DNA from: Lachnospiraceae bacterium
GTDB lineage: Bacteria > Bacillota_A > Clostridia > Lachnospirales > Lachnospiraceae
DNA: 33,768 bases
Assembly: GCA_028694115.1 (NCBI GenBank)
Contig: JAQUUB010000044.1
Span: 1-33,768 of the forward strand
Direction of reading: 5' to 3'
The notes beneath the pieces are model-generated. The model did not search any database. It had not been told where the DNA came from and saw nothing but the letters and a program-made list of their open reading frames with translations. Within the stretch, counting starts at the first letter, position 1; every line of letters starts with the position of its first letter. This document shows positions 1,945 to 25,937 of this stretch, piece by piece. The translations under genes and the position numbers were made by a program.

Positions 1945-2301
1945 TTACTCTTCATTTTCAAAATCCTCATCTATTTCTTCCATACTCTGAAAAGCTTCCA
2001 GTATTTCTGCCATAGTACGTATTGGTGTGAAAAACTCTTCTCCCACTTCATTGATGTTATCAATACGTTTTAGCTCAGCTTCTATATTTTGCAGGTACTT
2101 TCGAAATTGTACAAGCATTAATGGATTTCCTTTTGCCAATACTTTTTGGTAAAGCAGGCTTTGAATTATGTATTCCTGACGGGTTCTAAAACCCATCAGT
2201 TTCACTCTCATTTCCAGTTCCTCGTTTTCTTCCTTCGACATCCTGAATGCTACCGTCACGTTTCTCCAACGGTTTTTCTTGTCCATGCTCTTCTCCGACA
2301 T
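1945..2301 (-). CDS. Ribbon-helix-helix protein (MobC-like), downstream of integrase
   Basis: 118 residues. The N-terminal part (about 12-50, VTVAFRMSKEENEELEMRV...) reads like a ribbon-helix-helix DNA-binding domain of the MobC / relaxosome-accessory kind; the rest is helical and acidic. Start chosen at 2301 because a GAGG box lies upstream. The coding region overlaps the end of the integrase by 116 bp in another frame, which is unusually long. Element 2 has an equivalent gene in the same place (21885-22286), so the order xis-int-RHH is shared. Likely role: DNA-binding accessory protein for processing or regulation; the exact role is unknown. Confidence 0.65.
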   Translation of the reverse strand: MSEKSMDKKNRWRNVTVAFRMSKEENEELEMRVKLMGFRTRQEYIIQSLLYQKVLAKGNPLMLVQFRKYLQNIEAELKRIDNINEVGEEFFTPIRTMAEILEAFQSMEEIDEDFENEE

Positions 2302-3379: not shown

Positions 3380-3582
3380 TAACATGCCTCCCTGAATTCT
3401 TCGTTCATGCCACCATATATTCTTTCTGAAAAATACTGACGATTAACTCGACCCTTGATAACAATATAGCCGTCTTTCTCTAATTCTGCATTCATGTCGC
3501 GAATGATTCGATATGCTTGCCTTTTTGAAATCTGTAATTCTCTTGCCACTTCATCGGCGCTAATAAATAATGTTTTACTCAT
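3379..3582 (-). CDS. xis: Excisionase / MerR-like small DNA-binding protein of element 1
   Basis: 67 residues. A winged-helix/MerR-type helix-turn-helix (ISADEVARELQISKRQAYRIIRDM) followed by a basic KGRVNRQYF segment, typical of excisionases paired with this integrase group. Start moved to ATG 3582 because GGAGG sits eight bases upstream; the longer frame to 3621 has no ribosome binding site and would run into the operator repeats. The stop overlaps the integrase start (TAATG). It is expected to bind the element ends and direct the integrase toward excision. Confidence 0.85.
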   Translation of the reverse strand: MSKTLFISADEVARELQISKRQAYRIIRDMNAELEKDGYIVIKGRVNRQYFSERIYGGMNEEFREAC

Positions 3583-4720: not shown

Positions 4721-5623
4721 CTATTTAATATCTACTTCATATATTTTATTATTTCTTTTTACTTTATATAGCTCAATCTCATTATCTTGAAGAATCTTAA
4801 TTGTATGATCTCCAATATTTTCTACCATTTTATCAGTACCTTCAACAATTCCACACGTTTTAATTTGCTTTGCATTTACAAATCTAAAATTCTTAGATTT
4901 ACACGTACCCAAATCACGTAATATTTGCATTTGTTCTTTTGTTTCTTTTAATTCTACAATATCAGCCATCAATAACTCATAGCAATTAAAATGCCTGCTA
5001 TACTCAATTTTTGTGAAATGCCTTCCACAATACCTATACATAATGTGACTAAAATCCAAAATATTTGTTTCAATGAGTTCTTCCTTAAACTCTCTGGATA
5101 AATCGCTTATAGTTTCTCTGTTACTTGACTTATTAAATCTCTTAATAAATTTTTTTAGATATTTTACCGGTACATGTAATCGATAATCATTATGTGATGA
5201 TTTATCCAATTTAATTTTATCATCATCAACAACTGAAAATTTATTGCAAAGATAGTCTTTTTCTTCCTCACTGCATTTATATGCGCCACCAACCGGTTGA
5301 TATTTTTGAGTTCCTCTTCCATTAAGAACCAGCATATATTTATCATCTACTTTAATACGAAACAAGTATGCGAACGAAATTCTCACTTTATCATTTTTCT
5401 TTAAAATTCCTGCTCTTCTTAATTGTCTTAACTCAACTTGCCACAAATCAACATCTGATAAATCGATCAGCAATTTACCTAGATATGGTATTAAAATCCC
5501 TAACACAACCCCTATAAAGCAACCAATTACTGGTATTGTTTTCTTCTCCACAACATACAGCCCTGCTGATAAACAAACAATAAGTATTATGAAAACTGTT
5601 ACCTTAGCGATCTTTTTCTTCAT
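4721..5623 (-). CDS. cap16: CBASS effector: 2TM membrane protein with SMODS-associated NUDIX domain (Cap16-like)
   Basis: 300 residues. Two hydrophobic segments at about 5-25 and 31-52 form a 2TM anchor, followed by a cytosolic domain. Within it, KYQPVGGAY (about 108-116) and the degenerate NUDIX helix REFKEEL (about 178-184) match the SMODS-associated NUDIX fold known from 2TM-NUDIX effectors of CBASS. In that family the NUDIX domain is the likely sensor of the cyclic nucleotide and the membrane part kills or arrests the infected cell; this is family knowledge, not shown here. The start at 5623 overlaps the E2-like gene by 20 bp. It is the last gene of a three-gene operon. Confidence 0.85.
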   Translation of the reverse strand: MKKKIAKVTVFIILIVCLSAGLYVVEKKTIPVIGCFIGVVLGILIPYLGKLLIDLSDVDLWQVELRQLRRAGILKKNDKVRISFAYLFRIKVDDKYMLVLNGRGTQKYQPVGGAYKCSEEEKDYLCNKFSVVDDDKIKLDKSSHNDYRLHVPVKYLKKFIKRFNKSSNRETISDLSREFKEELIETNILDFSHIMYRYCGRHFTKIEYSRHFNCYELLMADIVELKETKEQMQILRDLGTCKSKNFRFVNAKQIKTCGIVEGTDKMVENIGDHTIKILQDNEIELYKVKRNNKIYEVDIK

Positions 5624-6059
5624 TCACATTCTCCTTTTTAGGTCCACTGCTAGGATGAACACCACCACCATACCAGACACCTGTCAATAGCCATATTTCA
5701 TAAAATTCTGTCCATTCAGCTGCCCACGGTATATATGAATCTATTAATAAAATTGATGGGTTCCAATCATCTAATTTAGGATGTTTTAAACATAATTCGG
5801 GAATTTCTTTTTTATAAGCACCATGAAAGTGCATTCCATAAGTATGAATTTCCACTGAATCACTCATATCAATATTGGGAGCTAACATATACACTGAGAC
5901 AATTCCTTTGTAGTAATAATCAATTCTGATTTTGTACTTACCTTGTCTTAATTCAATTTCTGCCGAAAATCCATATCTACTCTTCACTATAATTTTGCAA
6001 TTTTCCATTCTGCTTAATTGAATCACATTTTTATGCATGAATAACAGTTTTTCTTTCAC
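5604..6059 (-). CDS. CBASS E2-like ubiquitin-conjugating protein (E2-only type II)
   Basis: 151 residues with the pattern of prokaryotic E2 proteins: histidine-rich IHTYGMHFH (71-79), a candidate catalytic cysteine Cys90 in ELCLKHPK, then W99 and the conserved IPWAAEWTEFYEIWLLTG (110-127) and GGG segment. It is flanked by a CD-NTase and a 2TM-NUDIX effector, so it fits the 'short' type II CBASS, in which a lone E2 without E1 or JAB protease acts on the C-terminus of the CD-NTase to prime it. ATGA overlap with the CD-NTase gene. No E1 or deconjugase gene is present in the window. Confidence 0.85.
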   Translation of the reverse strand: MKEKLLFMHKNVIQLSRMENCKIIVKSRYGFSAEIELRQGKYKIRIDYYYKGIVSVYMLAPNIDMSDSVEIHTYGMHFHGAYKKEIPELCLKHPKLDDWNPSILLIDSYIPWAAEWTEFYEIWLLTGVWYGGGVHPSSGPKKENVNEEKDR

Positions 6060-7228
6060 TTACTATCACCACCAAAATATGTATGCTTATCATAATTTCT
6101 ATCAGTATCATCCGTAGTAATTGAAGCTGCATTCTGATTAAAACGCAATGTATCATTTTTTGCCATCTCCCCCATTACATTTCCATACCGATTTAAAGCA
6201 CCCATACCCACGCTTTCGCCAAATGATTTTAGAATTCCTGCACGTAATTCTATTTGATCGGTTTCAATAAATTGTTCTGGATTAACTAAAATATCTAGTC
6301 TCGCCTGCTGAATCCACTCATCAAATGCTTTCTTCAATAATTCATTGTTCTTCCATTTTTTTAAAAAATTTTCTTGGTTATTTGATGGATTAAAAAGGCA
6401 CCATTCCCCATCTGGATTTATCTTAATAAATTCAGGAAACTTTTGAAGCATATTTTTTATCGTCACATATACATTTTCTTTTTCACCCATGTATGAAAAT
6501 GAATTATCATATGTCAATGCACACAATGTTGTAATAATAATCGAAGACGGTCTATCATCACTATTGTCTTTATTAGTGAAGTAAATATCCCTATGTCTTT
6601 TCAAAATCTGAATTGCTTTTTGTAACGGTGTCCTTACTTTCATTAAATCAAGTTTTTCAACTTCCGTTGAAGCTTTTTCTGAAAATGCTCTATACTCTGT
6701 AATAACTTTTTCAAACTTCATTGCATTTTTAAACCACTCTACATATCCCTTGGGATTACTAAGGTCATAATAATACAAATTACCATCATATCTAGCAATA
6801 TTTATCGATTCATCTTGTGCTTGTTCGATACCTTGCGCACTTGCCACATCCATATGAAATTGAGACGAGTCCGCATATTGAATGCGTATACACGGTTTTT
6901 TATCTTGAACTTTCCCAACATATCTTCCATGATTCTCAAGAAGTTCTTTTATTTTATTTCTCAAATCTTCAGGACTATAGTGTGGATTCCTAATAAGTAC
7001 AACTAGATCAACATCATATTGTTCATCTTCATTTAATGGTTTTACCACAGTACCTAATTCAAATGAGCCTTGAGGATAAATAATCACTTCCCATTCCTCA
7101 TTTGCTGTCTTAATATAATCACCTAACGCAGTGTATGCTGTTTTAGCTTTATCCAACATAGTTTCTGTAATATTGAGTTCTTCCGCCAGTGAATTAAAAA
7201 TCATTCCTAATTTTTTCTCTTTTTCCAA
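6056..7228 (-). CDS. cdn: CBASS CD-NTase (cGAS/DncV-like nucleotidyltransferase)
   Basis: 390 residues. The nucleotidyltransferase signature is clear: Gly54-Ser55 (QGSFELGT), Asp72 and Asp74 (YDVDLVV), and third acidic residue Asp127 (FHMDVAS). After phage detection such enzymes make a cyclic oligonucleotide that activates the neighbouring effector; the exact product cannot be read from sequence by eye. Start is TTG at 7228 with AAGGA nine bases upstream. The extreme C-terminus ends in two glycines followed by Asp-Ser-Lys, relevant to conjugation by the E2-like protein. It lies 14 bp after the metalloprotease gene and heads the CBASS operon. Confidence 0.93.
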   Translation of the reverse strand: MEKEKKLGMIFNSLAEELNITETMLDKAKTAYTALGDYIKTANEEWEVIIYPQGSFELGTVVKPLNEDEQYDVDLVVLIRNPHYSPEDLRNKIKELLENHGRYVGKVQDKKPCIRIQYADSSQFHMDVASAQGIEQAQDESINIARYDGNLYYYDLSNPKGYVEWFKNAMKFEKVITEYRAFSEKASTEVEKLDLMKVRTPLQKAIQILKRHRDIYFTNKDNSDDRPSSIIITTLCALTYDNSFSYMGEKENVYVTIKNMLQKFPEFIKINPDGEWCLFNPSNNQENFLKKWKNNELLKKAFDEWIQQARLDILVNPEQFIETDQIELRAGILKSFGESVGMGALNRYGNVMGEMAKNDTLRFNQNAASITTDDTDRNYDKHTYFGGDSK

Positions 7229-7242
7229 TTAACATGTCCTTT

Positions 7243-7968
7243 CTACAATCTCTTCTCCAGTTCCATCTTCCGCTCCTTCCAATCAGGCATTAACATTGCC
7301 ACAAAATCATAAAACTTCTTAGAATGGTTCGGGTGTATGAAGTGCGTGAACTCATGCAACACAACATACTCTATACAGTTTCTTGGTGCTTCTATCAGCT
7401 TACTATTCAAAGTTATTACACCTCGTTTCGGCTGACAGGACCCCCACCTTGATGTCATATATCTAACTTTTACAATTGGATATTCCACATCATATTTTTT
7501 GAATATCTGGTAGATTTCTCTGCTAATCTGATTAAATGTACCAGTTTGCATTTCTTTTAACCAATTATTCATTAAGTTCTCTTTACGCTTTTGATTTTCT
7601 TTATTTCTTAAAGTAAGAAATATAAACACGCCATCCGTTGTTACTGATTCCTGCTTCCCCTGGATAACTTTTAACCGTAAGCTTTTTCCTAATATATCAA
7701 AACTTTCACCGCTTACATATTGCCTTGGAGCAAATGATACATACTTACGGTTTTCCTCATATTTGTCTAGCGCTCGTATTATGTATTCCTGCTTTTCTTT
7801 GACAAAATAATCAATGAACTCAACTGGTACACTTTCACTAGCTGATACAAATACTTGACCATCCGGCTTTACACGTAAATTAATATTCTTTACCTGTTTT
7901 CGTGTGAGCTGATATTCTAATACTCTTTGCTCACACCGAACATTTCTTATTTCTGTATTAGATATCAT
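7243..7968 (-). CDS. YgjP-type (DUF45 / M48-like) zinc metalloprotease linked to type I RM
   Basis: 241 residues, soluble. The zinc motif HEFTH lies about residue 205-209 (VLHEFTHFIHPNHSKKF), with the downstream HPNHSKKFY characteristic of the DUF45/WLM-related YgjP family; RWGSCQPKRGVITLN precedes it, as usual. Genes of this family often sit directly after hsdR in type I restriction-modification operons, and the role there is not established. The start overlaps the hsdR stop (TGATG), so the two are translationally coupled. Regulated proteolysis of restriction subunits is a possible job, but that is speculation. Confidence 0.85.
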   Translation of the reverse strand: MISNTEIRNVRCEQRVLEYQLTRKQVKNINLRVKPDGQVFVSASESVPVEFIDYFVKEKQEYIIRALDKYEENRKYVSFAPRQYVSGESFDILGKSLRLKVIQGKQESVTTDGVFIFLTLRNKENQKRKENLMNNWLKEMQTGTFNQISREIYQIFKKYDVEYPIVKVRYMTSRWGSCQPKRGVITLNSKLIEAPRNCIEYVVLHEFTHFIHPNHSKKFYDFVAMLMPDWKERKMELEKRL

Positions 7969-10900
7969 CAGCTTTTAAATCTCCTTAATGCCGTTGTTTT
8001 AACATTCTCAATGATTTTATCAATCACATCATACGTTAATTTGAATTTTCCTGCGCACTCATACTCATAGAACAGATCATCCATATCTTGTGCTATTCTG
8101 TCATGAATTGTCTTGTTATTTGTCCAATCCACTCTGCTATGCTTTTCAATGATATTTGTTATTTGTATTGCAATGTCTGCGATCAATTCTTGCTTTGTTG
8201 GCTTAGTACCAGCTTCATATGTCGATTCTTCCGCTACTAAATATGCATTCTTAGGATTATCAATCTCATCATTTAATATTGCTCCTACTACACCATAAAA
8301 TGCCTGTGCATGAACATTATTCTTTAGCTTTTCTGGGTATTTTACATCCGTAACACCGGATGCATAATCAGCCATAATCGAACGCATTTTTTCCAGGTAT
8401 TCGGCATCCGTAATTATCTTTTCTTTATACTGCTGCAGCGTATCTTTAATTCTTTTTGAAAAACTATCATAATAAGCTGGATTTTCATCATACTTCTCAC
8501 TGATGCTCTTCGTCATCTTCGACTGAATAGCATCCGCTTTTGATCGCAGAGTTCCAAGCTCATCTAATTCTTTTTCAAAATCAGACCGATTTAGGATGTC
8601 TATTGGAGCTGTAATTTGCTTTAACCCAACCACAGACAAATGATTATCTAAAAGGTTCTGCATCAATGGTTCATATTCACTATTATCAATAGAATCGCAA
8701 TATCGAATCTTAACCGAACGTCTAACCTTTGAATAAAATATAAATGCATCCTGGTAACGTTTTCTTTCTTCTTTTGGTATATCTTGATATGCAATTTCTG
8801 AATTTAAGACGATAGACAGATTCTTTCCTAATTCACAAAGTAAATTATAAAACTCTTTTCGCTTCTTATCGTCTGCTAAAAACACTTCAACTTCTTCTGT
8901 ATCACTCTTATTGTTAATTGATACAAACAAATCATCAAGTCTTGAATAAGCTTGTCTCAATTTGCCAACTACAGTAATTACATCTACAATGGCACCTTGT
9001 AAATCTCCTGCTTCAAAGTTTTCTAATCCAGCACCGCTATACATATTCATTGCATCATCGAGCTTTTGAATCAAACCTCTGTAATCTACAATCAAACCAT
9101 AGTCCTTGCCATCTGCCAAACGGTTTGTTCTTGCAATAGCTTGTAACAATCCATGTTCTTTTAATTCTTTATCAATATAAAGCACTTGGCATACTGGCGC
9201 ATCAAATCCAGTTAGCAACTTACTACACACAATCAGTATATCGATATCACCATCAACAAAACGATTTTTCACTGAGTCTTCGTAAGAATCTCCATCACCA
9301 TACTTTTTCATCATTTTATTCCAGTATGCAATCACTCTATTATCTGTTGATTCATCAATGTCAGTTACACTTTCCCGCATATCTGGAGGAGAAATACATA
9401 CTTCGCATTTTAGATCTCCAAACTGTTCAAAACAAGTCAAATAAGAAACAGCATCTCTTTTTCTATTTGTAGCAAGGATTGCCTTAAATCCAGTTTCTTT
9501 GTATCCTTCAACAAAATGATTATTTATATCAAGTGCGATTCTTTTTATTCGTGCTTCTGTGGAACCAAGATGCTTCATGCTGCTCCACTTTTTCTTTAAG
9601 TCAATCTTTTGTTTATCATTTAATTTCTTTGTGGTCTGCTCAAACCACAAGTCAATATTAGCTTCATCTACTGCCTGTTCAACAAATCTGCCTTCGTATA
9701 TTAATGGAACAATGGCTCGATCCTCCACACCATCTTTGATGGTATACTTATGAATCAATTTACCAAACTTGGTCATGGTATTTTTTTCACTTTTCATAAG
9801 AGGTGTTCCAGTGAATCCAATATAGCAAGCATTTGGAAATACAACTCGCATCTTTGTAGATAGTTCACCATAATTTGAACGATGACTTTCATCTACCAAT
9901 ATAAAGATATCTTTACCAAGAGACTTCAATCCGCTATTTTCAACTGTATTAAACTTGTTAATAATAGTTGTAATAATATCTGCTTTTCCTTCATCAATTA
10001 AGCCAATTAGATTTTTACCGCTAGTAGCCCTTGCCGGTCTACATCTTGTATGGGTAAATGTCTTAGCAATCTGTTTATCCAACTCTTTTCGGTCCGTTAC
10101 AATAACTACCTTTGGTTCTAATTTTGCCATCTCTAATAAAATATACTTTGCAAGCATAACCATTGTAAGTGATTTCCCTGAACCTTGTGTATGCCAGATC
10201 ACACCACTTTGACGATTCCCCTGTATATCATTTGTGTTGATTGTTTTAATAATTTCCTTGATTGCAAAATATTGCTGATATCTACAGATTTTCTTCACAT
10301 TGGCATCATATACCACAAAATATTTTGTCAGTTCCATTAAGCGTTCTTTAGAAAATAGAGCAATAATATTTTCATCCTGAACTGTTGGTTGCCTATCATA
10401 AATACACTCTGCAATCTTTCCCTCTAAAAATTCTTGATTTTCTTCTTTCCATACACTCCAGAACTTCTTTGGTGTACCTGCTGTTGCATATTTTACGGAA
10501 TTCTTATTGGTTGCCATAACAATCTGTGCGAACTTGAATAACTGAGGTATATAATCGGCCTGTTCATTCCGCAAAGTTTGCTCTACACCTTGCTCTACCG
10601 TAATATGTGGAGCTTTACATTCAATCACTGAGAATGGAATTCCATTCACAAAGAGTACAATGTCAGGTCTTGCATTATGTTCACCATCATGGCTATCTAC
10701 TGAATATTCCTCTGTTACATGAAAGATATTATTTTCAATATGATTCCAATCAATATATTTCAAATCAAAGCTAAGAACCTTTCCCCCACCAACAGTTTCA
10801 GGGTAACTTTTCCCAAGCATTAATGCATCAAATATTTTTTCGCTAGTTTTTATTAACCCATCTGTCAATGGTTCATCTAAATCATCAATAGCCCTTTCAA

Positions 10901-11117
10901 TATTTGCAGAAGAAAATTCCTGCTCAATACCACCAAATTCAAAACGATTTAATTTGCGGAGTTGATTTCGTAAAATTCCTTTCAACAAAACCTGATACTT
11001 ACTTCCACGTTGTACCATGCAGTCTTCTGGTGATATATAGGTGTATTCTAACTGCTTTAATAAATCTATTGCAGGACATTTACTTATGTTATCTTCCAGG
11101 TATAAATTACTATCCAT
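7968..11117 (-). CDS. hsdR: Type I restriction enzyme, R subunit
   Basis: 1049 residues, normal length. The N-terminal nuclease has Pro151-Asp152 and Glu166-x-Lys168 (PD-(D/E)xK; ARPDIVLF...VIECKAP). The SF2 translocase follows: Walker A QGSGKS (311-316), DESH box (409-412), the GFTGTPL motif III, and the late TGFDAP and QAIARTNR motifs. The C-terminal helical part would contact the methylase. It cuts DNA lacking the HsdMS methylation after ATP-driven translocation. The start has GGAGGTGA just upstream. It follows the 57-residue ORF after a 91-bp gap containing a hairpin. Confidence 0.96.
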   Translation of the reverse strand: MDSNLYLEDNISKCPAIDLLKQLEYTYISPEDCMVQRGSKYQVLLKGILRNQLRKLNRFEFGGIEQEFSSANIERAIDDLDEPLTDGLIKTSEKIFDALMLGKSYPETVGGGKVLSFDLKYIDWNHIENNIFHVTEEYSVDSHDGEHNARPDIVLFVNGIPFSVIECKAPHITVEQGVEQTLRNEQADYIPQLFKFAQIVMATNKNSVKYATAGTPKKFWSVWKEENQEFLEGKIAECIYDRQPTVQDENIIALFSKERLMELTKYFVVYDANVKKICRYQQYFAIKEIIKTINTNDIQGNRQSGVIWHTQGSGKSLTMVMLAKYILLEMAKLEPKVVIVTDRKELDKQIAKTFTHTRCRPARATSGKNLIGLIDEGKADIITTIINKFNTVENSGLKSLGKDIFILVDESHRSNYGELSTKMRVVFPNACYIGFTGTPLMKSEKNTMTKFGKLIHKYTIKDGVEDRAIVPLIYEGRFVEQAVDEANIDLWFEQTTKKLNDKQKIDLKKKWSSMKHLGSTEARIKRIALDINNHFVEGYKETGFKAILATNRKRDAVSYLTCFEQFGDLKCEVCISPPDMRESVTDIDESTDNRVIAYWNKMMKKYGDGDSYEDSVKNRFVDGDIDILIVCSKLLTGFDAPVCQVLYIDKELKEHGLLQAIARTNRLADGKDYGLIVDYRGLIQKLDDAMNMYSGAGLENFEAGDLQGAIVDVITVVGKLRQAYSRLDDLFVSINNKSDTEEVEVFLADDKKRKEFYNLLCELGKNLSIVLNSEIAYQDIPKEERKRYQDAFIFYSKVRRSVKIRYCDSIDNSEYEPLMQNLLDNHLSVVGLKQITAPIDILNRSDFEKELDELGTLRSKADAIQSKMTKSISEKYDENPAYYDSFSKRIKDTLQQYKEKIITDAEYLEKMRSIMADYASGVTDVKYPEKLKNNVHAQAFYGVVGAILNDEIDNPKNAYLVAEESTYEAGTKPTKQELIADIAIQITNIIEKHSRVDWTNNKTIHDRIAQDMDDLFYEYECAGKFKLTYDVIDKIIENVKTTALRRFKS

Positions 11118-11155
11118 TGTCTCACCTCCATATGAGGATAATATCTATTTTATTT

Positions 11156-11184
11156 GTCACCCGACTCATTCTGAATCGGATGAC
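11156..11184 (-). promoter_or_regulatory. Intercistronic hairpin before hsdR
   Basis: A 12-bp stem with a five-base loop lies between the 57-residue ORF and hsdR. Its two irregular pairs are G-U when read as the minus-strand RNA and A-C on the other strand, so the structure fits the operon transcript. There is no U-run after it, so it may be an RNA-processing or stability element that separates hsdR expression from the methylase genes. Confidence 0.5.
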
Positions 11185-11208
11185 ATTCTGTCTTTTGTAA
11201 ACCATTAA

Positions 11209-11382
11209 CTATTTCTCTTTTGTTACACCTTTAAAAGGTGTTCCGTCTTGTTTCACATCCATAAATCTTCCAGTATCAGAATCTCTTTTTACCCATTGCT
11301 CGGTTTTTGGATTATATGTTTGTGAACGGTCTGTAACAGCACCATTTCTGTGCCCATCACCTGCGACTCCATTTTTAGCCAT
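11209..11382 (-). CDS. Small conserved-looking protein between hsdS and hsdR
   Basis: 57 residues, starting ATG at 11382, with GGAGG inside the end of hsdS and one base separating the two genes. The sequence is hydrophilic, with Gly/Asn-rich start and a TYNPKTEQWVKRDSDTGRFMDVK core. Short proteins with this core occur beside type I restriction genes as far as I recall, but no function is known to me. The tight spacing and good ribosome binding site argue that it is a real gene. Confidence 0.7.
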   Translation of the reverse strand: MAKNGVAGDGHRNGAVTDRSQTYNPKTEQWVKRDSDTGRFMDVKQDGTPFKGVTKEK

Positions 11383-11383
11383 A

Positions 11384-12667
11384 TTATTCTTCGCCTCCTT
11401 TTTGATTCACTCTAACAATACCAGTTAAAAGCAATTGCATCATTGCTTTCTTTTCAAGTTTTATTTGCTCAAATTGTTGTTCTAGTAGTTCTATTTCTTT
11501 ATCTGCCTGAGATAAAATTTGGGAAATAGCTTTTTGTTCTTCTAAACCTGGTAGTTCAACCTCAAAATTTAAAAAATCATATGGAGATACTGCCATTCTT
11601 TCATATACTGTTCCTTCTTCATATTTTCTCACAGCATTTATAAAATCCCACCTCATTAAGAATTGTGATATAAATTCAATATCATAGTTTCTATTCACCT
11701 CGAAAGTAACATAAATTGGTGAAAATATAGCATTCCCAAATGTATTTCTACAAATAACTCCAAATTTCAAATTTGCCGGATTATAACATATATCATTTAG
11801 AAATGTTACTTTATATTCTTTGTCCTCATTTTTAACTAAATGATCTCTATCATATCTCTGACTTTTATCGTATATTCCTTCTGTTGAAAGAGTTACATGG
11901 GGATATTGTTCTCCCTTTTGTGCATACAATTTTCTTTCTTTCAAGACATGACTTAGTTTAATTTTCTTCCACTCAAGACTAAAATTCTTTAATCTTTTTT
12001 TTCTAGTAAAAAATTGTTGCACATAAAATTTTTTTTGTAATTTCTTCTGTGAAATAAGCTTTGTATATAATTCTTGTTTTCGTTGATACAAATCAAGTGT
12101 TTTTACTATTTCAACTTGTTCTACTCGTTTTGGTATGCACATATTTGAAGCAAAAAAATCATCTACAGCAATATTTAGCAACCCATGATTTCTTGCTCCT
12201 TCCTGAGCAAATGCATTTATTTCTTTATTAAGCATTCCGTAATCAAAATAATACTTATAGTATAATTCATATACCTCATTATTGATTTTAGAAAAACATA
12301 TATATAAGGGCGACACAATACCCTTGTCATAATATTTCAACTGCTTAATTGCACCATATGGGTATCCATTAGAGTAACTTTTGTTATATGCAAACTCTCC
12401 TTTTTTCAGCAAATAATAATTGCTCTTATCTTCACTTGCTACTGATTTAGTGAAAAATTCCTCTTGGGAAATCAATCCATTTTGTGCTGATATCGTCAAT
12501 ACGTTATCATTATTTTCTTTATTTTTCCTATTAACCCTCTTGAATTTTGTACTTAGTTTACACTCTTCCCACTTTTCAGGGAATATCCCGTTCTTTGTAC
12601 CCTTATATCCTTTAGGGATCTCTCCTCTTTTTATCATCTCAATACGTTCTTTTATCTCTTTTCTCAA
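11384..12667 (-). CDS. hsdS: Type I RM specificity subunit with two target-recognition domains
   Basis: 427 residues, full length for HsdS. Two repeats of target-recognition domain plus coiled-coil spacer: the first about residues 25-215 (ending in the helical EIVKTLDLYQRKQELYTKL), the second about 225-410 (ending in EEQKAISQILSQADKEIELLEQQFEQ). It determines the bipartite DNA site recognised by the complex. The start overlaps the dinD stop by four bases. It is in frame and apparently intact. A second, single-TRD S-like gene lies upstream of hsdM, so the locus has two S-type genes. Confidence 0.93.
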   Translation of the reverse strand: MRKEIKERIEMIKRGEIPKGYKGTKNGIFPEKWEECKLSTKFKRVNRKNKENNDNVLTISAQNGLISQEEFFTKSVASEDKSNYYLLKKGEFAYNKSYSNGYPYGAIKQLKYYDKGIVSPLYICFSKINNEVYELYYKYYFDYGMLNKEINAFAQEGARNHGLLNIAVDDFFASNMCIPKRVEQVEIVKTLDLYQRKQELYTKLISQKKLQKKFYVQQFFTRKKRLKNFSLEWKKIKLSHVLKERKLYAQKGEQYPHVTLSTEGIYDKSQRYDRDHLVKNEDKEYKVTFLNDICYNPANLKFGVICRNTFGNAIFSPIYVTFEVNRNYDIEFISQFLMRWDFINAVRKYEEGTVYERMAVSPYDFLNFEVELPGLEEQKAISQILSQADKEIELLEQQFEQIKLEKKAMMQLLLTGIVRVNQKGGEE

Positions 12668-13518
12668 CTATTTTCACCTCCATTCTGTGACTTTTCTATC
12701 CTTTTTGCCTCTTCTTTTTCAATCTGTTTAATACTTTTATTTGGAGTTGGCAAGTCTTCAGGCATTGTTCCACCAAGTTCTACAATTGTCTGTCTTACTT
12801 TCTTACCAACTTCATAGTGTGCGTCCCCAGCTTCTTTTTTACCCTGAATATTTTCTCTTCGGAGTTTCTCATCTGTCTGTGTTGCACGAAATAGATTTGC
12901 TGCAAGTTCTGTACTCCCCATATGGTCTAGAATTTGCTGACTTTTTTTCAATCCTTTTCTTTCATGAATACCTTTCGCACCTAATCCGCCATAAAGCCCT
13001 TGATATCCTCTGTTTTGAAAAATTGCATAATCTTTTGAATCTTCTATTCCTGCATTTTTTGCTGCATCTGCCAAAGATTTATTATGAATTTTCATTTCAT
13101 TTCGGATAGCAAGTCTTTTCTGGTCTTCATCTAAGCTTTCATAATTTTCAATCAATTCCTGCTGTCTTGTTTTAACTGCAAAATAGGTTTGTCCTAATGC
13201 AATGACTGCTTTTCTTGAATCACCATTCATTACAATCAAATAACAAGCATATCTTGATAATTCATAATCCTGAATTTCCTTTTTCGCATTATTGGGCATC
13301 TCTATCGTTTTGCCGACCTCGGCAAAATGTTCTTCTATATCATTTCCACTTTTTTCACATGCAGTTTTAGCTCTTTCAATTGTTTCATTAAATCTTCTCC
13401 ATTGAGAATAATCTAAAGCTATCTGCAATTCTCTGGCATACCAAAATTCCTGTCCATTTTCATTGATATGCTTTATGAATTCAAAAGTCTGCTCATTATA
13501 ATTTACAATATCACTCAT
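12664..13518 (-). CDS. dinD: DinD-like protein within the type I RM operon
   Basis: 284 residues resembling DNA-damage-inducible protein D. The N-terminal half is the Bro-N-like fold (FWYARELQIALDYSQWRRFNETIERA), followed by the conserved RNRGYQGLYGGLGAKGIHERKGL-type region (about 167-190) and a C-terminal basic helical tail. E. coli DinD is SOS-controlled and modulates RecA filaments; whether this one does is unknown. It overlaps both neighbours, hsdM (13515) and hsdS (12667), by four bases, so it is produced with them. No LexA-type box was noticed before the operon. Confidence 0.88.
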   Translation of the reverse strand: MSDIVNYNEQTFEFIKHINENGQEFWYARELQIALDYSQWRRFNETIERAKTACEKSGNDIEEHFAEVGKTIEMPNNAKKEIQDYELSRYACYLIVMNGDSRKAVIALGQTYFAVKTRQQELIENYESLDEDQKRLAIRNEMKIHNKSLADAAKNAGIEDSKDYAIFQNRGYQGLYGGLGAKGIHERKGLKKSQQILDHMGSTELAANLFRATQTDEKLRRENIQGKKEAGDAHYEVGKKVRQTIVELGGTMPEDLPTPNKSIKQIEKEEAKRIEKSQNGGENS

Positions 13519-15044
13519 AAGCCCAACTCCTTTAGATATACATCCATTTGTGCTTGAACTTCTTTTAATTCTCGTTCAATATTGGCAATGTTGCAACGCA
13601 CTTCATCAATATTTACCATTTCCTCTTCTTCAAATGTATCTACGTAACGAGGGATATTTAAATTAAAATCATTTTCCTTAATTTCATCAAAAGTAGCAAC
13701 ATATGAGTATTTATCCACTGCTTCATAAGCTTTATAAGTTGATACTATTTTTTCAATATCTAAATCTCTTAATAAATTTTGATTCTTTCCTTTTTCAAAA
13801 TTACCGTCACCACTTGCATCTATAAATAAAACATCCCTGCGTTTACGATTTTTCTTAAAAATTAGTACACATGCTGGGATTGATGTCCCATAAAATAAGT
13901 TAGCAGGTAAACCAATAACTGCATCTAATAAATTAAATTCTATTATCTGTTGTCTTATTCTACCTTCAGATGCACCTCTAAATAAAACTCCATGAGGTAA
14001 TACTACGCCCATTCTTCCATTATCTGCATCTAAACTATTTAACATATGAAGAACGAATGCGTAATCTCCTTTACTTGATGGTGGAACTCCCCAATCAAAT
14101 CTATGATATATATCTAAATCAGCTGACATCTTAGATTTCTTTTTATCATCCGCTGTATCTGGCAAAAATCCACTATCCCATTTATCTAAACTAAATGGTG
14201 GATTTGCAACTACTACCTGGAATTTCATCAGCTTATCGTCCTCAATGTTCTGTGGATTAGCTAATGTATCTCCTTGCCATATTTTTGCATCATCTATTCC
14301 ATGCAAGAACATGTTCATACTGCATAATGCCCAAGTCTGCATATTTTTTTCCTGTCCATAAATTGCAACCTTATTGGTATGTGCCTGATGATATGCTTTT
14401 AATAATAATCCACCACTTCCGCACGTAGGATCATAAATCCTATCGTTTTCTTGTGGATCTACTAAAGTTGCAACCAACTTAGATACTTGACTCGGTGTAA
14501 AAAATTCTCCGCCCTTTTTGCCTGCATCCGAAGCAAAATTTGCAATCATATATTCATATGCATCACCAATAATATCATTACTCTCCAATACTGATGGTCT
14601 TAAATCAAGCGAAGAAAAATCTTCTAATACATTTTTTAAGGTAGCATTTTTCTCTTTCTTTTCTCCAAAATCTACCGTTGAATTAAAGTCAATTGCACGA
14701 AATACATTGCGTAACTTTCCACTATTATGTTCTTCAATATTATTAAGTGCTATATTAATCATCTGACCAATTTCTGAATCCGCTCTACTAGAATATAGAT
14801 AATCAAATGTTGAGTCATTATCAAGTATAAATGATTCTCTGCTCATTGCTCTCTCTACTCTTCGCTCATCACCATCATACTGTTTCATAAACTTTTCTTT
14901 TGTCTCTGTACATACATCACTTAAATACTTTACAAATAACATTGACAAAATATAATCCTTATATCTTGAACTATCTATTTTTCCTCTAAAGCTATCACAA
15001 GCTTTCCATAATACTCTTTCAATATCACTTTTAGTTGTCTTCAT
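13515..15044 (-). CDS. hsdM: Type I RM adenine methyltransferase, M subunit
   Basis: 509 residues, normal length. N-terminal helical HsdM_N domain (about 5-150), then the N6-adenine methylase core with SAM-binding motif I DPTCGSGG (205-212) and catalytic motif IV NPPF (281-284). It forms M2S with the specificity subunit, and with HsdR the restriction complex. The start at 15044 overlaps the preceding half-hsdS gene by 14 bp, with an AGGAG-type box upstream. It lies in an uninterrupted minus-strand operon. Confidence 0.96.
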   Translation of the reverse strand: MKTTKSDIERVLWKACDSFRGKIDSSRYKDYILSMLFVKYLSDVCTETKEKFMKQYDGDERRVERAMSRESFILDNDSTFDYLYSSRADSEIGQMINIALNNIEEHNSGKLRNVFRAIDFNSTVDFGEKKEKNATLKNVLEDFSSLDLRPSVLESNDIIGDAYEYMIANFASDAGKKGGEFFTPSQVSKLVATLVDPQENDRIYDPTCGSGGLLLKAYHQAHTNKVAIYGQEKNMQTWALCSMNMFLHGIDDAKIWQGDTLANPQNIEDDKLMKFQVVVANPPFSLDKWDSGFLPDTADDKKKSKMSADLDIYHRFDWGVPPSSKGDYAFVLHMLNSLDADNGRMGVVLPHGVLFRGASEGRIRQQIIEFNLLDAVIGLPANLFYGTSIPACVLIFKKNRKRRDVLFIDASGDGNFEKGKNQNLLRDLDIEKIVSTYKAYEAVDKYSYVATFDEIKENDFNLNIPRYVDTFEEEEMVNIDEVRCNIANIERELKEVQAQMDVYLKELGL

Positions 15045-15633
15045 TTTTTCTTCTCCTCATTTCCTTCTGTGCTTTATCAATCGCCTCTTTATAATACAAC
15101 TCTTTCTGTCCTATTAAACGGTCTAGCAGGTGAATTTCTTTTTTTGCAAGCAAATTCAATTCTGAAATTTTTCGTTGTTCATCTAATGTTAATAATTCAA
15201 TTTCCATTTCTGCATAAGACGATGGCTTTACTGTTCCTATCATTATACTGCTAACATTTTGCAAAATTGATGCCTTTACTTTTTCAGTATTTAGCAACCA
15301 ATACAAATACTCTGGTAATATTTTTTTACCTCTTGTCCTTATTACAACAAAATGAGACGGTATGACCATACCAGCAAAATCTTCATCAATAAGTACCGCA
15401 GTATATGGTGTTGTTAGCCTGACAATAACATCTCCAGGTTGGGTTAGATATTCAGCTTTTAATCTTTCATTTGCGCAAAATTCTTCTAAGTTATTCTCAT
15501 CAATATATCCTTTAGAATCAATTGCTTTCAGATTCAACTGCCTGTACTTTGCTATTTCATCAGAAGGGTGTTTCGCTTGCTTTCTTGCAAGAACTAATCC
15601 AGTTTTGACCGAAACTAATTCATCTAATCTCAA
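15031..15633 (-). CDS. Single-TRD HsdS-like protein upstream of hsdM
   Basis: About 200 residues, half the length of a normal HsdS: one target-recognition domain (LDELVSVKTGLVLARKQAKH...) and one coiled-coil region (LTLDEQRKISELNLLAKKEIHLLDRLI). The frame runs upstream to ATG 15648, but GGGAGG lies seven bases before an in-frame TTG at 15633 and the ATG has no box, so TTG is preferred. It is not a visible truncation: both ends are clean, and it overlaps hsdM by 14 bp. Half-size S proteins can work as dimers; here it could give a second specificity or act as a regulator. Confidence 0.8.
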   Translation of the reverse strand: MRLDELVSVKTGLVLARKQAKHPSDEIAKYRQLNLKAIDSKGYIDENNLEEFCANERLKAEYLTQPGDVIVRLTTPYTAVLIDEDFAGMVIPSHFVVIRTRGKKILPEYLYWLLNTEKVKASILQNVSSIMIGTVKPSSYAEMEIELLTLDEQRKISELNLLAKKEIHLLDRLIGQKELYYKEAIDKAQKEMRRRKNEDN

Positions 15634-15660
15634 TCTATTTCCTCCCATTCTTGGAATTTA

Positions 15661-15690
15661 GAGAAAACGGAACCATCCAGACGTTTTCTC
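15661..15690 (-). promoter_or_regulatory. Hairpin displaying an anti-leader loop, before half-hsdS
   Basis: On the operon strand an eight-base-pair stem (GAGAAAAC/GTTTTCTC) closes a 14-base loop that contains GGATGGTTCC. That decamer is the exact complement of GGAACCATCC in the leader of the same transcript (15896-15905) and is identical to a stretch of the antisense RNA described below. On the plus strand the hairpin is followed by TTTTT and could also act as a terminator for transcription from the left. Confidence 0.55.
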
Positions 15691-15697
15691 TTTTTAA

Positions 15698-15820
15698 TTA
15701 TTTCTTCTTAATTGGTATTTTGAAAAGTTTACCGTTTTTTGGATATATTCTTACACCATTCTTGGTAATATAAGGTCTAAAAATATAGTCTACTTCTTCG
15801 TCTTTTTCTTTCTTTTCCAT
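15698..15820 (-). CDS. 40-residue basic protein, first gene of the RM operon
   Basis: 40 residues, too short for most gene finders: acidic/lysine start (MEKKEKDEEVDYIFRPYI) and a basic end (KLFKIPIKKK). AAAGGAG lies six to seven bases upstream of ATG 15820. The start codon is inside an 11-bp perfect stem with sequence 22 bases upstream, so translation is probably gated by RNA structure. It lies between a strong promoter and the half-hsdS gene. I do not know its function; it may be a small regulator or a leader peptide. Confidence 0.6.
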   Translation of the reverse strand: MEKKEKDEEVDYIFRPYITKNGVRIYPKNGKLFKIPIKKK

Positions 15821-15859
15821 AGATTTCTCCTTTCTATTTATAATGATTGAAATCTATGG
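15817..15859 (-). promoter_or_regulatory. Start-codon-sequestering stem
   Basis: CCATAGATTTC (15849-15859 on the minus strand) pairs perfectly with GAAATCTATGG (15817-15827), which contains the ATG of the 40-residue ORF; the ribosome binding site is at the edge of the 21-base loop. An RNA with this stem would hide the start of the first gene in the restriction operon. Confidence 0.65.
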
Positions 15860-15876
15860 ACCGATTATGCTATAAT
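15847..15876 (+). promoter_or_regulatory. Promoter of the antisense RNA
   Basis: On the plus strand TTGAAA (15847-15852), an 18-bp spacer, then TATAAT (15871-15876) preceded by TG one base before (extended -10). No ORF follows; a terminator lies about 80 bp downstream. Confidence 0.7.
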
Positions 15877-15882
15877 GAATCT

Positions 15883-15961
15883 ACTAAGAATTCGTGGATG
15901 GTTCCATATCGATTCACAGATTATTTGAACTATGAAGTTGCCGCTTCGTAGTTCTTTTTTT
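15883..15961 (+). ncRNA. Antisense small RNA in the RM operon leader
   Basis: A predicted RNA of about 79 nt between a plus-strand promoter (15847-15876) and a rho-independent terminator (11-bp stem 15927-15937 with 15944-15954, six-base loop, seven T residues at 15955-15961). The only irregular pair in the stem is U-G in this RNA but C-A in the opposite strand, which supports the plus strand as the functional one. It is wholly complementary to the leader of the minus-strand restriction operon (transcription start near 16015). It contains GGATGGTTCC, also shown in the loop at 15661-15690. Likely a cis-acting regulator of restriction expression. Ends are inferred. Confidence 0.65.
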
Positions 15962-16021
15962 GTTATGTGCCAAATATGACGGCAAACATTCAAAAAAATA
16001 GGCCTTTTCAAGCTTGTTTAC

Positions 16022-16050
16022 ATTATATCATTTTATCATCATCTTGTCAA
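16022..16050 (-). promoter_or_regulatory. Consensus promoter of the RM (and possibly CBASS) operon
   Basis: On the minus strand a perfect TTGACA (16045-16050), a 17-bp spacer and perfect TATAAT (16022-16027). Transcription would start near 16015 and run through a leader of about 195 nt into the 40-residue ORF, half-hsdS, hsdM, dinD, hsdS, hsdR and beyond. Such a perfect promoter implies strong basal transcription, held in check by the leader structure and antisense RNA. Confidence 0.85.
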
Positions 16051-21922: not shown

Positions 21923-22286
21923 CCTTCCCTGCTGTATTTTTTCCTTCCCACAAATATCTTGCACCTTCTAACATCCACAGAATTGCTTTTAGCATATATT
22001 CGTAGTCCAGCTGTAATTCCTGTATTTCTGAACTGGTCATCGGAATATTCTCCGATAAAATCTGTTCATGCAACTGATAAAGATTTTGTTGCATTTTCTG
22101 TAATTCCTTTACCAGTACATACACTGTCTCTTTCTTGCCAACAACACACACATGGTTATAAATACAGGAACGAATAAAATAATCTTTCTTCATCATTCCA
22201 CTTGCCTTAATCTTTGCTTCAATTTCTCGTCTTTCATAATCTGAAATACGAAAACTAATAGTTGGATTTTTATGAACTCCCGGCAT
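21885..22286 (-). CDS. Ribbon-helix-helix protein of element 2 (MobC-like)
   Basis: 133 residues. N-terminus PTISFRISDYERREIEAKIKASGMMKKDYFIRS is a ribbon-helix-helix type DNA-binding region; a helical, glutamine-rich middle follows. The start overlaps the integrase stop (TAATG). It is the counterpart of the 118-residue protein at 1945-2301. Its place between int and the RepA-like ATPase suggests a role in replication or excision, while the true mobC of this element is at 18171-18530. Confidence 0.7.
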   Translation of the reverse strand: MPGVHKNPTISFRISDYERREIEAKIKASGMMKKDYFIRSCIYNHVCVVGKKETVYVLVKELQKMQQNLYQLHEQILSENIPMTSSEIQELQLDYEYMLKAILWMLEGARYLWEGKNTAGKDGDNCGGSESRT

Positions 22287-23380
22287 TACTCATCACCTTC
22301 CTTATCTGTAATCACAAAAGCATCGTTTAGCATGGTTGCCATCTGCTTCTGCTCACTTGGAAACATATGTGCATAGCGAAAGGTAATATCAGAACTTTCA
22401 TGACCAACTCTGGAACCAATTGCTACTGCTGTAAATCCCATGTTAATTAATAGCGAAACGTGGGAATGGCGCAGGTCATGGATTCTAATTCTCTGGACAC
22501 TTGCTTTCTTAGCCCCTCGATCCATCTCATGATGCAAATATGTTTTTGTAATATGAAACAACCTGTCTTTCTTGGTAATCCCATATAATCGACTCATATA
22601 ATCTTGCAATTCATCACGTAAAAAATCAGGAATAACAACATCACGTTTACTCTTTGGAGTCTTTGGATCTGTAATTACATCCTTACCCTTAATTCGCTGG
22701 TAAGATTTTGTAATATGAATCACATTCTTCGCAATATCAATATCTGCAGGAGTCAATGCTAATAGTTCACCCATTCGAAGCCCACACCAATATAGAATCT
22801 GAAATGCATAATACGAAACAGGTTTATCCTTCACCTGCTCGATAAATTTCAAATACTCTTCCTTTATCCAAAAGAGCATTTCATCTGCTGTTCCCTTTCC
22901 CAATGGACCAGCCTTAACCACTGGATTTTCTTTCAATTCATAAAATCTTACTGCATGGTTAAACAATGCGCTCAACTCCGATTGAATTGTTTTCAGATAA
23001 GTAGGCTTAAATAAATTCCCCTGTGGATTTTTAAGCTTAATCATCTGATTCTGCCACTGAATAATATCTGTAGGTTTGATATCCTTCATTTTCTTATCCT
23101 TAAAATAGGGAAGTAATTTGCTGTTCACAACAGCTTCTTTTGTATTCCATGTGTTCTCTTTCAATTTGGGCTTCATGTCTCTTGTATATGCTTCTACAAA
23201 ATCTCCAAAAGTCATCTCTAAATTGGATTCTTCCTTCATACGAAAATGTTGTTCCCACTCTAGTGCTTCTCTTCTGGTTTTAAAACCACGCTTCAATTTA
23301 CGCTTATTCTTACCAGTCCAGTCATTGTAATGGAACGAGACATACCATGTGCCTCGCTCCTCATCTTTATATGCTGCCAT
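22286..23380 (-). CDS. int: Tyrosine recombinase (integrase) of element 2
   Basis: 364 residues, the same design as the element 1 integrase: AP2-like N-terminal arm-binding region, core-binding domain, then Arg202 (GLRMGELL), His301-x-x-Arg304 (HDLRH), His327 and nucleophile Tyr336 (RYAHMFP). It inserts the element at the 3' end of guaA through the TATTCAAACTC core. It lies 15 bp after xis, and both are driven by the consensus promoter at 23948-23976, which the repressor can block. Lacks the extra C-terminal tail of the element 1 enzyme. Confidence 0.96.
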   Translation of the reverse strand: MAAYKDEERGTWYVSFHYNDWTGKNKRKLKRGFKTRREALEWEQHFRMKEESNLEMTFGDFVEAYTRDMKPKLKENTWNTKEAVVNSKLLPYFKDKKMKDIKPTDIIQWQNQMIKLKNPQGNLFKPTYLKTIQSELSALFNHAVRFYELKENPVVKAGPLGKGTADEMLFWIKEEYLKFIEQVKDKPVSYYAFQILYWCGLRMGELLALTPADIDIAKNVIHITKSYQRIKGKDVITDPKTPKSKRDVVIPDFLRDELQDYMSRLYGITKKDRLFHITKTYLHHEMDRGAKKASVQRIRIHDLRHSHVSLLINMGFTAVAIGSRVGHESSDITFRYAHMFPSEQKQMATMLNDAFVITDKEGDE

Positions 23381-24642: not shown

Positions 24643-24779
24643 CCACCAGTACTTCCCAATGTCATATTTCGCGAAAATTACAAAGACTATAATGATACCA
24701 AAAACAGATATGGTTTATATATTCATTTGATTTAGTAAAACCATTCTACCAAAATACACAGAAAAATATGAGGATAAAT
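24643..24779 (+). promoter_or_regulatory. Gap before the GTPase gene with a TTTCGCGAAA palindrome
   Basis: TATAAT at 24689-24694 could be a -10. About 15 bp upstream is the palindrome TTTCGCGAAA (24667-24676), made of the same half sites as the repressor operators but without the six-base spacer. A second possible -35 (TTGATT) lies at 24728. No terminator with a clear T-run follows the repressor gene, so read-through into the GTPase gene is possible. Confidence 0.35.
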
Positions 24780-25937
24780 ATGGACAGAGGAAATGTATTA
24801 GTTATTGGAAATTCTGGTGTAGGAAAATCAACTCTTATTAATGCCATTCTTGGAGAAAAACGGGCCGAGACAGGATGGGGAACTGCAGGTACAACAAAAG
24901 AATTAGTAATATATGAAAATGAGGATATCCCCTTTCGTATAATAGATTCTGTTGGATTTGAACCTTCTTTTATTAATAGGCAAAAAGCTATTCATGCAGT
25001 TAAAAAATGGTCTTCTAAAAGCACTAAAGATGGACATCAAGATAGTCAAATTAATGCAATTTGGTTTTGTATAGAAGGTACTTCACGTAAGTTATTTCCT
25101 GAAATGATTAAGAACCTTTCAAATGCAACTTCAATGTGGGAATCTGTTCCTGTTATAGTTGTAATTACCAAATCTTATTCAGTTCAAGAAAGAGAAGAAA
25201 ATATCGAGATGGTAAACAATGCTTTTGCAAGACAAAAGCGTTACTCAAACAATCTCAAAAAAATAATTCCTGTTGTTGCCTCTACATATGTATTAAACGA
25301 TACAGCATATGCTGCTCCGGAAGGAATCACTGAGCTTATTGATGCAACAAATGAATTATTACCAGAAGGTGTTAAATCAGCTGAAAACGATATCTACAAA
25401 TATAAACTCAACCGAAAAAGAGTATTTGCTCAAAGTATTGTCGGAGTATCTACAACTGCAGGTGTAGTTGTTGGAGCAGTCCCAATACCCTTTGCCGATG
25501 CAATTATACTCTCCCCAATAGAAGTTGCAGAGATTAATGCGCTAGCTCAATTATATGGAATTAATAAGCATGAAAATTCAAAACAGTTCTTAAATTCAAT
25601 CATTGAGGTGGGCACAGTTAGCACTGCTGCAAAAGCTGCAATCAGTGGCTTGAAAGCAATTCCTGGAATCAACTTAGCTGCAAGTGTTATAAATGCCATT
25701 ATTGCTGGATGCTTTGTAGCTGCCATCGGAGAAGGCACGATATATGCTTTTGAACAAGTTTATTTAGGTAAAAAAACCGTTGAAGATATTGATTGGTTAA
25801 AGAAAATAATAGAATCAAAACTGTCAACAGAATTACTCGAAAAAGTAAAACTTACTTCCGATAAAATAACCGATAAAACTGACTTAAAAAGCATCGGAAA
25901 AATTATTTCAGAACTATTTGGTGCTACTTCCAAATAA
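24780..25937 (+). CDS. Era-like GTPase with C-terminal DUF697-like hydrophobic domain
   Basis: 385 residues from ATG 24780, chosen for its GAGG box (the frame also opens at 24768). The N-terminal G domain has P-loop GNSGVGKST (10-18), DSVG (56-59, G3) and a degenerate G4, Thr-Lys-Ser (130-132) instead of NKxD. The C-terminal part (about 205-330) is rich in Gly/Ala/Val and contains VPIPFADAIILSPIEVAEI, the pattern of the DUF697/YcjF-type domain thought to associate with membranes. It is the only cargo gene on the plus strand, between repressor and att. Its role is unknown; an immunity or stress GTPase of the element is one possibility. Confidence 0.8.
   Translation: MDRGNVLVIGNSGVGKSTLINAILGEKRAETGWGTAGTTKELVIYENEDIPFRIIDSVGFEPSFINRQKAIHAVKKWSSKSTKDGHQDSQINAIWFCIEGTSRKLFPEMIKNLSNATSMWESVPVIVVITKSYSVQEREENIEMVNNAFARQKRYSNNLKKIIPVVASTYVLNDTAYAAPEGITELIDATNELLPEGVKSAENDIYKYKLNRKRVFAQSIVGVSTTAGVVVGAVPIPFADAIILSPIEVAEINALAQLYGINKHENSKQFLNSIIEVGTVSTAAKAAISGLKAIPGINLAASVINAIIAGCFVAAIGEGTIYAFEQVYLGKKTVEDIDWLKKIIESKLSTELLEKVKLTSDKITDKTDLKSIGKIISELFGATSK

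Follow-up and report, generated by a model that had tools for sequence, protein, structure and literature searches.

Antisense control in described systems

By analogy, the closest working likeness to the locus described here appeared to be the replication control of I-complex and IncL/M plasmids. In these plasmids repA requires the translation of a leader peptide that is inhibited by RNAI, as described in the accessible part of PMC10286972, and a competition between pseudoknot and antisense RNA is named in reference titles within the accessible part of PMC10724649. Another point of comparison is provided by hok/sok and other type I toxin-antitoxin systems, for which the accessible part of PMC4147584 describes a small protein, an antisense RNA on the leader, pairing of the mRNA ends and a location on mobile elements; almost all of the toxins are, according to the same text, small and hydrophobic with a membrane helix. 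The antisense target in hok is a second ORF, mok. The symE/symR locus of Escherichia coli sets a short antisense RNA, SymR, against a non-hydrophobic small protein in the company of type I restriction genes. Excerpts of PMC1891008 and PMC4147584 place SymR over the Shine-Dalgarno (SD) sequence and start of symE and its promoter inside the gene, and the accessible part of PMC12707154 lists symE symR as a companion of type I systems.

In restriction systems proper, antisense RNAs have been described for EcoRI and Eco29kI, both of type II, where they arise from reverse promoters within the restriction gene (accessible parts of PMC12707154 and PMC3874152). These two reviews, from 2025 and 2013, also mention antisense control for one type III system, and their accessible parts contained none for a type I system. 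Literature searches with DUF2188, with peptide strings of the protein family, and with antisense RNA combined with type I restriction or hsdS gave, in partly accessible texts, nothing on the module described below.

Layout of the locus

We analysed a stretch of 33,768 nt from a Lachnospiraceae bacterium (hereafter the window), in which a minus-strand series of defence genes was preceded by a leader and a 40-aa ORF (Table 1). On balance, and with considerable doubt remaining, we think it probable that the plus-strand RNA predicted in this leader would serve as the antisense component of an RNA switch with three parts, centred on the gene of the 40-residue protein. This reading draws, from sequence and comparison, on the parts themselves, their conserved arrangement, a covarying complementarity between leader and loop, and the place of that complementarity inside the antisense RNA.

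The likeness to the I-complex and IncL/M plasmids was one of arrangement. Namely, an antisense RNA (here predicted and conserved) lies over a leader upstream of a short ORF, this ORF (RepB or RepY in the plasmids) lies between the leader and the next gene, and a leader element is complementary to a hairpin loop near the start of that next gene; the pseudoknot of the plasmids is putative here. In contrast, the controlled gene of the plasmids is a replication initiator (repA/repZ), and its counterpart in the window would be an hsdS-like gene. Moreover, the short ORF of the window belongs to a protein family kept across phyla, and to our knowledge the leader peptides of the plasmids are not similarly conserved.

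Table 1. Features of the leader, the small gene and the genes behind it
Feature	Position	Strand	Remark
Sense promoter TTGACA-17-TATAAT, TG extension	16022..16050	-	12/12; predicted start ~16015
mRNA 5' leader, ~195 nt	15821..16015	-	start inferred from promoter
Antisense promoter TTGAAA-18-TATAAT, TG extension	15847..15876	+	11/12; p = 0.005 given terminator
Predicted antisense RNA, ~79 nt	15883..15961	+	architecture conserved
Intrinsic terminator of antisense RNA	15927..15961	+	stem 15927-15954, seven Ts 15955-15961
Leader element GGAACCATCCA	15895..15905	-	reads TGGATGGTTCC in antisense RNA
12-bp hairpin predicted to sequester small-gene start codon, 5' arm	15849..15860	-	
Same hairpin, 3' arm	15816..15827	-	includes small-gene ATG
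40-aa ORF	15698..15820	-	family core YIFRPYITKNGKRIYPKNGK.FKIP; SD AAAGGAG
Hairpin behind 40-aa gene	15660..15691	-	10-bp stem, 12-nt loop
Loop element TGGATGGTTCC	15669..15679	-	last base in stem; perfect complement of leader element
SD GGGAGG and probable TTG start of hsdS-like gene	15631..15646	-	
Half-length hsdS-like gene	15031..15633	-	first large gene after switch; ORF-list start 15648
hsdM	13515..15044	-	
Bro-N protein gene	12664..13518	-	presumably DinD-like
Full-length hsdS	11384..12667	-	
hsdR	7968..11117	-	
CD-NTase (CBASS-type)	6056-7228	-	
E2-like gene (CBASS-type)	5604-6059	-	
2TM/Sa_NUDIX effector gene (CBASS-type)	4721-5623	-	

After the 40-aa ORF, the genes on the minus strand followed in the order hsdS-like, hsdM, Bro-N, hsdS, hsdR, YgjP-like and CBASS-type. 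From 4721 to 15633, the type I restriction and CBASS-type genes, with the YgjP-like gene between them, stood close together on the same strand, with one perfect promoter ahead of them. The 40-aa ORF and the probable TTG start of the hsdS-like gene were separated by 64 nt including the hairpin, whose 3' arm was predicted to be able to pair with the SD of the hsdS-like gene. L035 and L094, the latter an Arcobacter plasmid, likewise had a half-length hsdS-like gene before hsdM and a full hsdS after it.

A predicted antisense RNA gene in the leader

The first-pass annotation had proposed a cis-antisense RNA over the 5' leader of the restriction operon, and this proposal was well supported, mainly by comparative evidence. 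Both promoters and the terminator lay where it had put them. Its leader length of about 195 nt was also right, but the leader ends at the ATG (15820) of the 40-aa ORF, which had been missed, and not at hsdS. In the terminator, the seven Ts were present as described, and the stem given as 11 bp had 12 pairs by our tool, the twelfth being a loop-closing U-G. The wobble pairing was indeed good only in the plus-strand RNA; there were two wobbles instead of the reported one, and both became A-C mismatches on the minus strand.

The two promoters were two of the three sites with at least 11 matches between 4600 and 18600, and the plus-strand RNA (15883-15962) folded with -23.7 kcal/mol (z = -4.2 against shuffles). 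Counts of such sites were at chance level: 9 promoter-like sites (8.8 expected) and 1 terminator-like site (0.7 expected) were found between 15000 and 17000, and 57 (67 expected) and 6 (4.6 expected), respectively, between 4600 and 18600. Therefore, the evidence from the single sequence was modest. The arrangement of a promoter followed after about 45 nt by a terminator was less probable by chance, as the p value in Table 1 indicates, and the decisive support for the predicted antisense gene is comparative. A promoter and a terminator that arose fortuitously in an AT-rich leader, with no RNA produced, would agree with the regional counts; we consider this extremely improbable, since position and arrangement were conserved in unrelated sequence and leader and loop covaried (see below). 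The antisense RNA gene is probably real.

Rfam covariance models, applied to the window and 12 loci, gave no known RNA family for the module. Matches elsewhere were a Clostridiales-3 RNA (RF02942, 169.7 bits) far off in the window at 1435-1699 on the minus strand and a tRNA in L012, and the leader surroundings gave three matches to eukaryotic families far below the cut-off. Close DNA relatives of the window leader were found neither in plasmids or phages nor, by exact pattern, in viral contigs; there were none in 397 genomes from the family of G001 (taken as Lachnospiraceae) either, a search without positive control that shows little.

Conservation of the arrangement among relatives

DNA was readable for 59 loci with a family match, the window included. 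Dropping L022 (small gene cut short, leader alike) and the weak L043, L044 and L046 left 55 loci, and 52 remained after L059, L071 and L079, which had too little upstream sequence for the terminator test. Second copies of loci already included (L011, L036, L047-L058, L066 and L067) had been left out beforehand, and L084, L086, L090 and L093 came from genomes already represented. The rule, fixed after some of the loci had been seen, required an intrinsic terminator within 40-260 nt upstream of the small gene and in antisense orientation to it.

By this rule, 27 of the 52 loci had an antisense terminator compared with 1.3 expected from shuffles, a count that includes the near duplicates L007/L008 and L003/L078/L082, and the other 25 had none. 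Sense-strand terminators by the same rule occurred at 9 of 52 loci, and 224 mechanically called control ORFs of at least 150 aa from the same loci had 8 antisense and 11 sense terminators. Of the 27 terminators, 26 lay 100-193 nt upstream and that of L021 lay at 62-87. Among six relatives found after the rule, L087, L088, L089, L091 and L092 had the terminator and L085 did not. The leaders of L007/L008, L087/L088 (with similar stems) and L019/L089 were related, so the loci were not all independent. Otherwise the stem sequences differed among loci; therefore, it was the architecture that was conserved and not the sequence. The first-pass annotation had looked to homologous leaders for conservation, which they offered in the former respect and not in the latter.

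An antisense promoter with p <= 0.05 was present at 13 of the 30 loci with a terminator (1.5 expected), and the RNAs predicted from these 13 measured 65-99 nt to the end of the stem. For the 13 loci in the promoter table that were assigned to Clostridia by their titles or by the search group (L004, L007, L008, L019, L023, L037, L039, L040, L041, L042, L087, L089 and L092), the p value was at most 0.07 in 12 (0.13 in L041), and the -10 element was TG-extended in all except L023. Gammaproteobacterial plasmid loci had poor antisense-promoter scores. L085, L088 and L091 were examined singly, outside both the promoter table and the 46-locus loop test described below.

Complementarity between leader and loop

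A repeat search revealed that 11 bases of the predicted antisense RNA (15895-15905) reappear in the mRNA at 15679-15669, where they fall in the loop of the hairpin that follows the 40-aa gene and extend by one base into its stem. The leader thus has two possible partners, this loop and the antisense RNA. In the antisense RNA this segment occupied positions +13 to +23 from the start at 15883, or +14 to +24 by an alternative start. Throughout the 33.8 kb the element had exactly two perfect copies, in leader and loop; with one mismatch allowed, there were 4 copies compared with 0.48 expected.

A covariation test at 46 loci set the loop of the best hairpin following each gene against the leader of the same locus and against those of all the others. 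The near duplicates L008, L038, L077, L078, L079 and L082 were dropped in this test only, and loci lacking a callable hairpin or with short upstream sequence were also left out. The matched complementarity summed to 681 compared with 580 +- 15 (z = 6.7), and none of 20,000 permutations reached 681. Per locus, loop and leader matched at p <= 0.05 in 9 of 46 cases (2.3 expected) and at p <= 0.1 in 15 (4.6 expected). The pairing letters themselves varied by locus (AACCATCCA, AAACCGCC, GCGGTTAGC, TGCCGGGA, GCTAGCA, CCGTTGA and others). A match at p <= 0.1 was missing in 31 of the 46 loci, including the gammaproteobacterial ones other than L006, and there was no convincing match at the gammaproteobacterial plasmid loci L001-L003, L013, L077, L078 and L080-L083.

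An earlier loop test had given 12 of 52 loci at p <= 0.05, and a first test covering the entire region behind the gene 7 of 54; the loop tests were the stronger. Single p values depended on the hairpin chosen, as in L014 (0.013 in the earlier loop test, 0.609 in the 46-locus test), and the automatic choice missed the loop match of L039 in both loop tests and those of L007 and L008 in the earlier one, matches that were recognised separately.

The element lay between antisense start and terminator at 12 of 15 placed loci, a count without a computed chance expectation, and mostly began 14-23 nt from the start; at L006, L021 and L092 it was outside this span. The placed loci include L007, L039, L041 and L092, although their matches were above p = 0.1 in the 46-locus test, and L045, L065, L074 and L075, with a loop match but without an antisense terminator, were unplaced. 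By eye, the hairpins of L037, L042 and L065 resembled the small gene's own terminator, without a gene to switch behind them. Where the hairpin has this appearance, the pairing can act solely on the small gene's own mRNA.

Predicted folding and the sign of control

In the switch proposed here, two partners would be available to the leader element: in cis the loop of the hairpin that follows the small gene, and in trans an antisense RNA transcribed across the leader. The two pairings would be mutually exclusive, and the antisense RNA and the loop would thus compete for the leader. Binding of the antisense RNA would withdraw the leader from the loop and shut off the effect of the cis pairing, and the duplex of leader and antisense RNA would probably also be cleaved. 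By analogy, repression would be the more probable sign of control, given that the leader antisense RNAs we know of act as repressors.

Folding predictions placed the 3' arm of the hairpin over the SD or start of the next gene in L004, L007, L008 and L039, and in the window over that of the hsdS-like gene when the 5' arm was blocked. We calculated how open the next SD was with the leader and loop elements barred from other pairing, the pseudoknot itself lying outside the model. Openness with the elements paired was higher than with the antisense RNA bound in L004 (0.38 vs 0.21), L007 (0.51 vs 0.16), L008 (0.44 vs 0.15) and L023 (0.45 vs 0.28). The direction was opposite in L039 (0.10 vs 0.17) and L040 (0.19 vs 0.44), and the two states were practically equal in L087 (0.62 vs 0.63) and the window (0.40 vs 0.40). 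The window value was 0.17 for the free mRNA and 0.40 both with the antisense RNA bound and with both elements taken. The 11-bp helix with a 12-nt loop would be strained. In a nested fold of the window mRNA, leader and loop paired with P 0.93, the hsdS start was closed and the hairpin was broken; as modelled, this fold is the lock reading of the pairing.

Sequestration of the small gene's start codon was considered as a general trait and rejected, being seen at p <= 0.05 in 2 of 51 loci, as expected by chance, with the window among the two.

The small protein and its family

The 40-aa protein had 17 close relatives, and a broader profile matched 689 of 807 candidates at E <= 0.001. Few of the 120 matches listed carried a name; they were hypothetical or uncharacterised, except for one Paratox. 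No Pfam or NCBIfam model matched the family at cut-off, and the window protein had no PADLOC family. By tblastn with a loose limit (E <= 1), the protein matched in 78 plasmid records; further family loci were 20 from genomes and a few from viral contigs. A tblastn search of phage records gave no match. A viral library gave nothing at E <= 0.001, the best match being an unnamed phage protein (E 0.017). Among evenly drawn genomes, the family occurred in 11 of 391 from the class of G001 (E <= 0.001; some proved weak), 4 of 369 from the class of G786 and 5 of 247 from the phylum of G792. The named loci spanned Firmicutes, Gamma- and Alphaproteobacteria, Bacteroidota, Acidobacteria and Dehalococcoidia, and across phyla the core motif of the protein was kept but the RNA letters were not.

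AlphaFold modelled the protein as a small beta fold (pLDDT 83, pTM 0.45). It was basic and soluble-looking, without an evident membrane helix as judged from the sequence by eye and from the beta model. Solved structures gave no meaningful match by sequence or fold.

We tried two named families. Paratox (PF24313) reached 13.3 bits and E = 0.068 with a cut-off of 27; a family member from a phage record (P0117) bears that name, but Paratox was absent among the matches of the 40-aa protein to solved structures. SymE was rejected as well, since ten members gave no such Pfam match up to E = 10 and PADLOC was equally silent on the window protein.

These properties bear on a reading in which the module is a type I toxin-antitoxin system with a new, non-membrane toxin. 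The antisense RNA would block a 40-aa toxin, pairing of leader and hairpin would lock the mRNA as in hok, and the hsd genes would merely lie behind, stabilised with the element. It would fit the combination of a small protein and an antisense RNA predicted at about 80 nt, the occurrence of the family on plasmids and viral contigs, the neighbouring relaxase gene in the window, the hairpins that by eye resemble the mRNA's own terminator in some loci, and the nested window fold. SymE/SymR, moreover, is an example of such a system with a non-hydrophobic protein and in the company of type I restriction genes (accessible parts of PMC4147584 and PMC12707154). Nevertheless, we consider this reading rather unlikely: the protein is basic and soluble-looking, unlike the usual type I toxins, recurring downstream partners such as DUF2188 would be left unexplained, and, in contrast to SymR, the predicted antisense RNA leaves the start codon of the small gene uncovered, beginning about 62 nt upstream of it.

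It is also conceivable, though improbable in our judgement, that the small protein is a regulator with a binding site in its own leader, in the antisense RNA or in the hairpin behind the gene, with the antisense RNA setting its dose and this portable dose control being placed before varied downstream genes. A core motif kept across phyla where the RNA letters are not, the basic small beta fold and the variety of downstream genes would suit such a regulator. However, it matched no solved structure, and a single fixed site of binding is hard to reconcile with RNA sequences that vary. The competition of antisense RNA and loop for the leader remains the reading that we prefer.

On three plasmids (L001, L080 and L081), a gene for a WYL-domain regulator preceded the small gene in opposite orientation, immediately so in L080. 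In L040 and L088, a similar short basic ORF starting MAKTK came after the small gene.

Relation to type I restriction

The tie of the antisense RNA to type I restriction, drawn in the first-pass annotation, was not supported by the comparison: the conserved partner was the 40-aa gene and not hsd. Comparison of eleven window proteins by tblastn with the loci of 58 relatives (each 1.6-10 kb long) produced a single match, which was HsdS-like and lay on the opposite strand in L059; HsdM and HsdR had no match. A next ORF followed within 260 nt in about half of 54 relatives and was never hsd; by Pfam it was DUF2188 in four cases, in L080 it was annotated as HNH, and in the others it was unnamed. The DUF2188 gene (PF09954) stood after the small gene in L004, L007, L016 and L039 (L008 was alike), suggesting a recurring pair in Clostridia and an alphaproteobacterial contig.

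Related hsd operons, on the other hand, had other sequence in front, as judged by eye in L035 and by annotation in L094; HsdM of L035 matched that of the window at 80 % and its HsdR at 75 % over the part available. Relatives of the HsdS half were absent from viral contigs and, in a search without positive control, from 46 genomes of the genus of G001. Since relatives of the module lacked hsd and relatives of the hsd genes lacked the module, the module was probably added to the hsd operon and did not evolve with it.

This bears directly on the proposal that the antisense RNA evolved to tune type I restriction. Such tuning would account for the position of the antisense RNA, opposite the leader of an hsd operon, and has a parallel in the antisense control of EcoRI and Eco29kI (accessible parts of PMC12707154 and PMC3874152), from which the window differs in that its antisense RNA lies in the leader before a small gene and not inside a restriction gene. 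We regard it as highly improbable in view of the separate occurrence of module and hsd genes. A delay of restriction after entry into a new host, which the first-pass annotation also suggested, would be conjectural. According to the switch that we favour, the hsd operon would have been captured, and elsewhere the switch would serve the small gene alone or with other partners. As the hsd operon sits behind the switch, it may be under its control.

More tentatively, the loci could represent a phylum-crossing class of portable mobile modules, each combining a tiny conserved protein with an antisense RNA and with a lock of leader and loop in which the letters co-vary, and running alone or before other genes; here it would gate a whole defence operon, comprising type I restriction and possibly the CBASS genes. 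This broader proposal is possible but leaves us more doubtful than hopeful. If the switch proposed here were true, the competition between antisense RNA and hairpin known from plasmid replication control would also govern a widespread, unnamed small-protein family, and such a competition could be captured to control defence genes. It would also give a handle on hundreds of small proteins of unassigned role, and the bases that must pair would be predictable from sequence alone at many loci.

The window also contained two related integrase genes (2186-3385 and 22286-23380), with MobC, relaxase and AAA genes between them, which suggests that two integrative mobilizable elements adjoin each other near guaA. 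The second integrase gene was adjoined by a plus-strand GTPase gene (24768-25937) with MMR_HSR1 and DUF697 domains.
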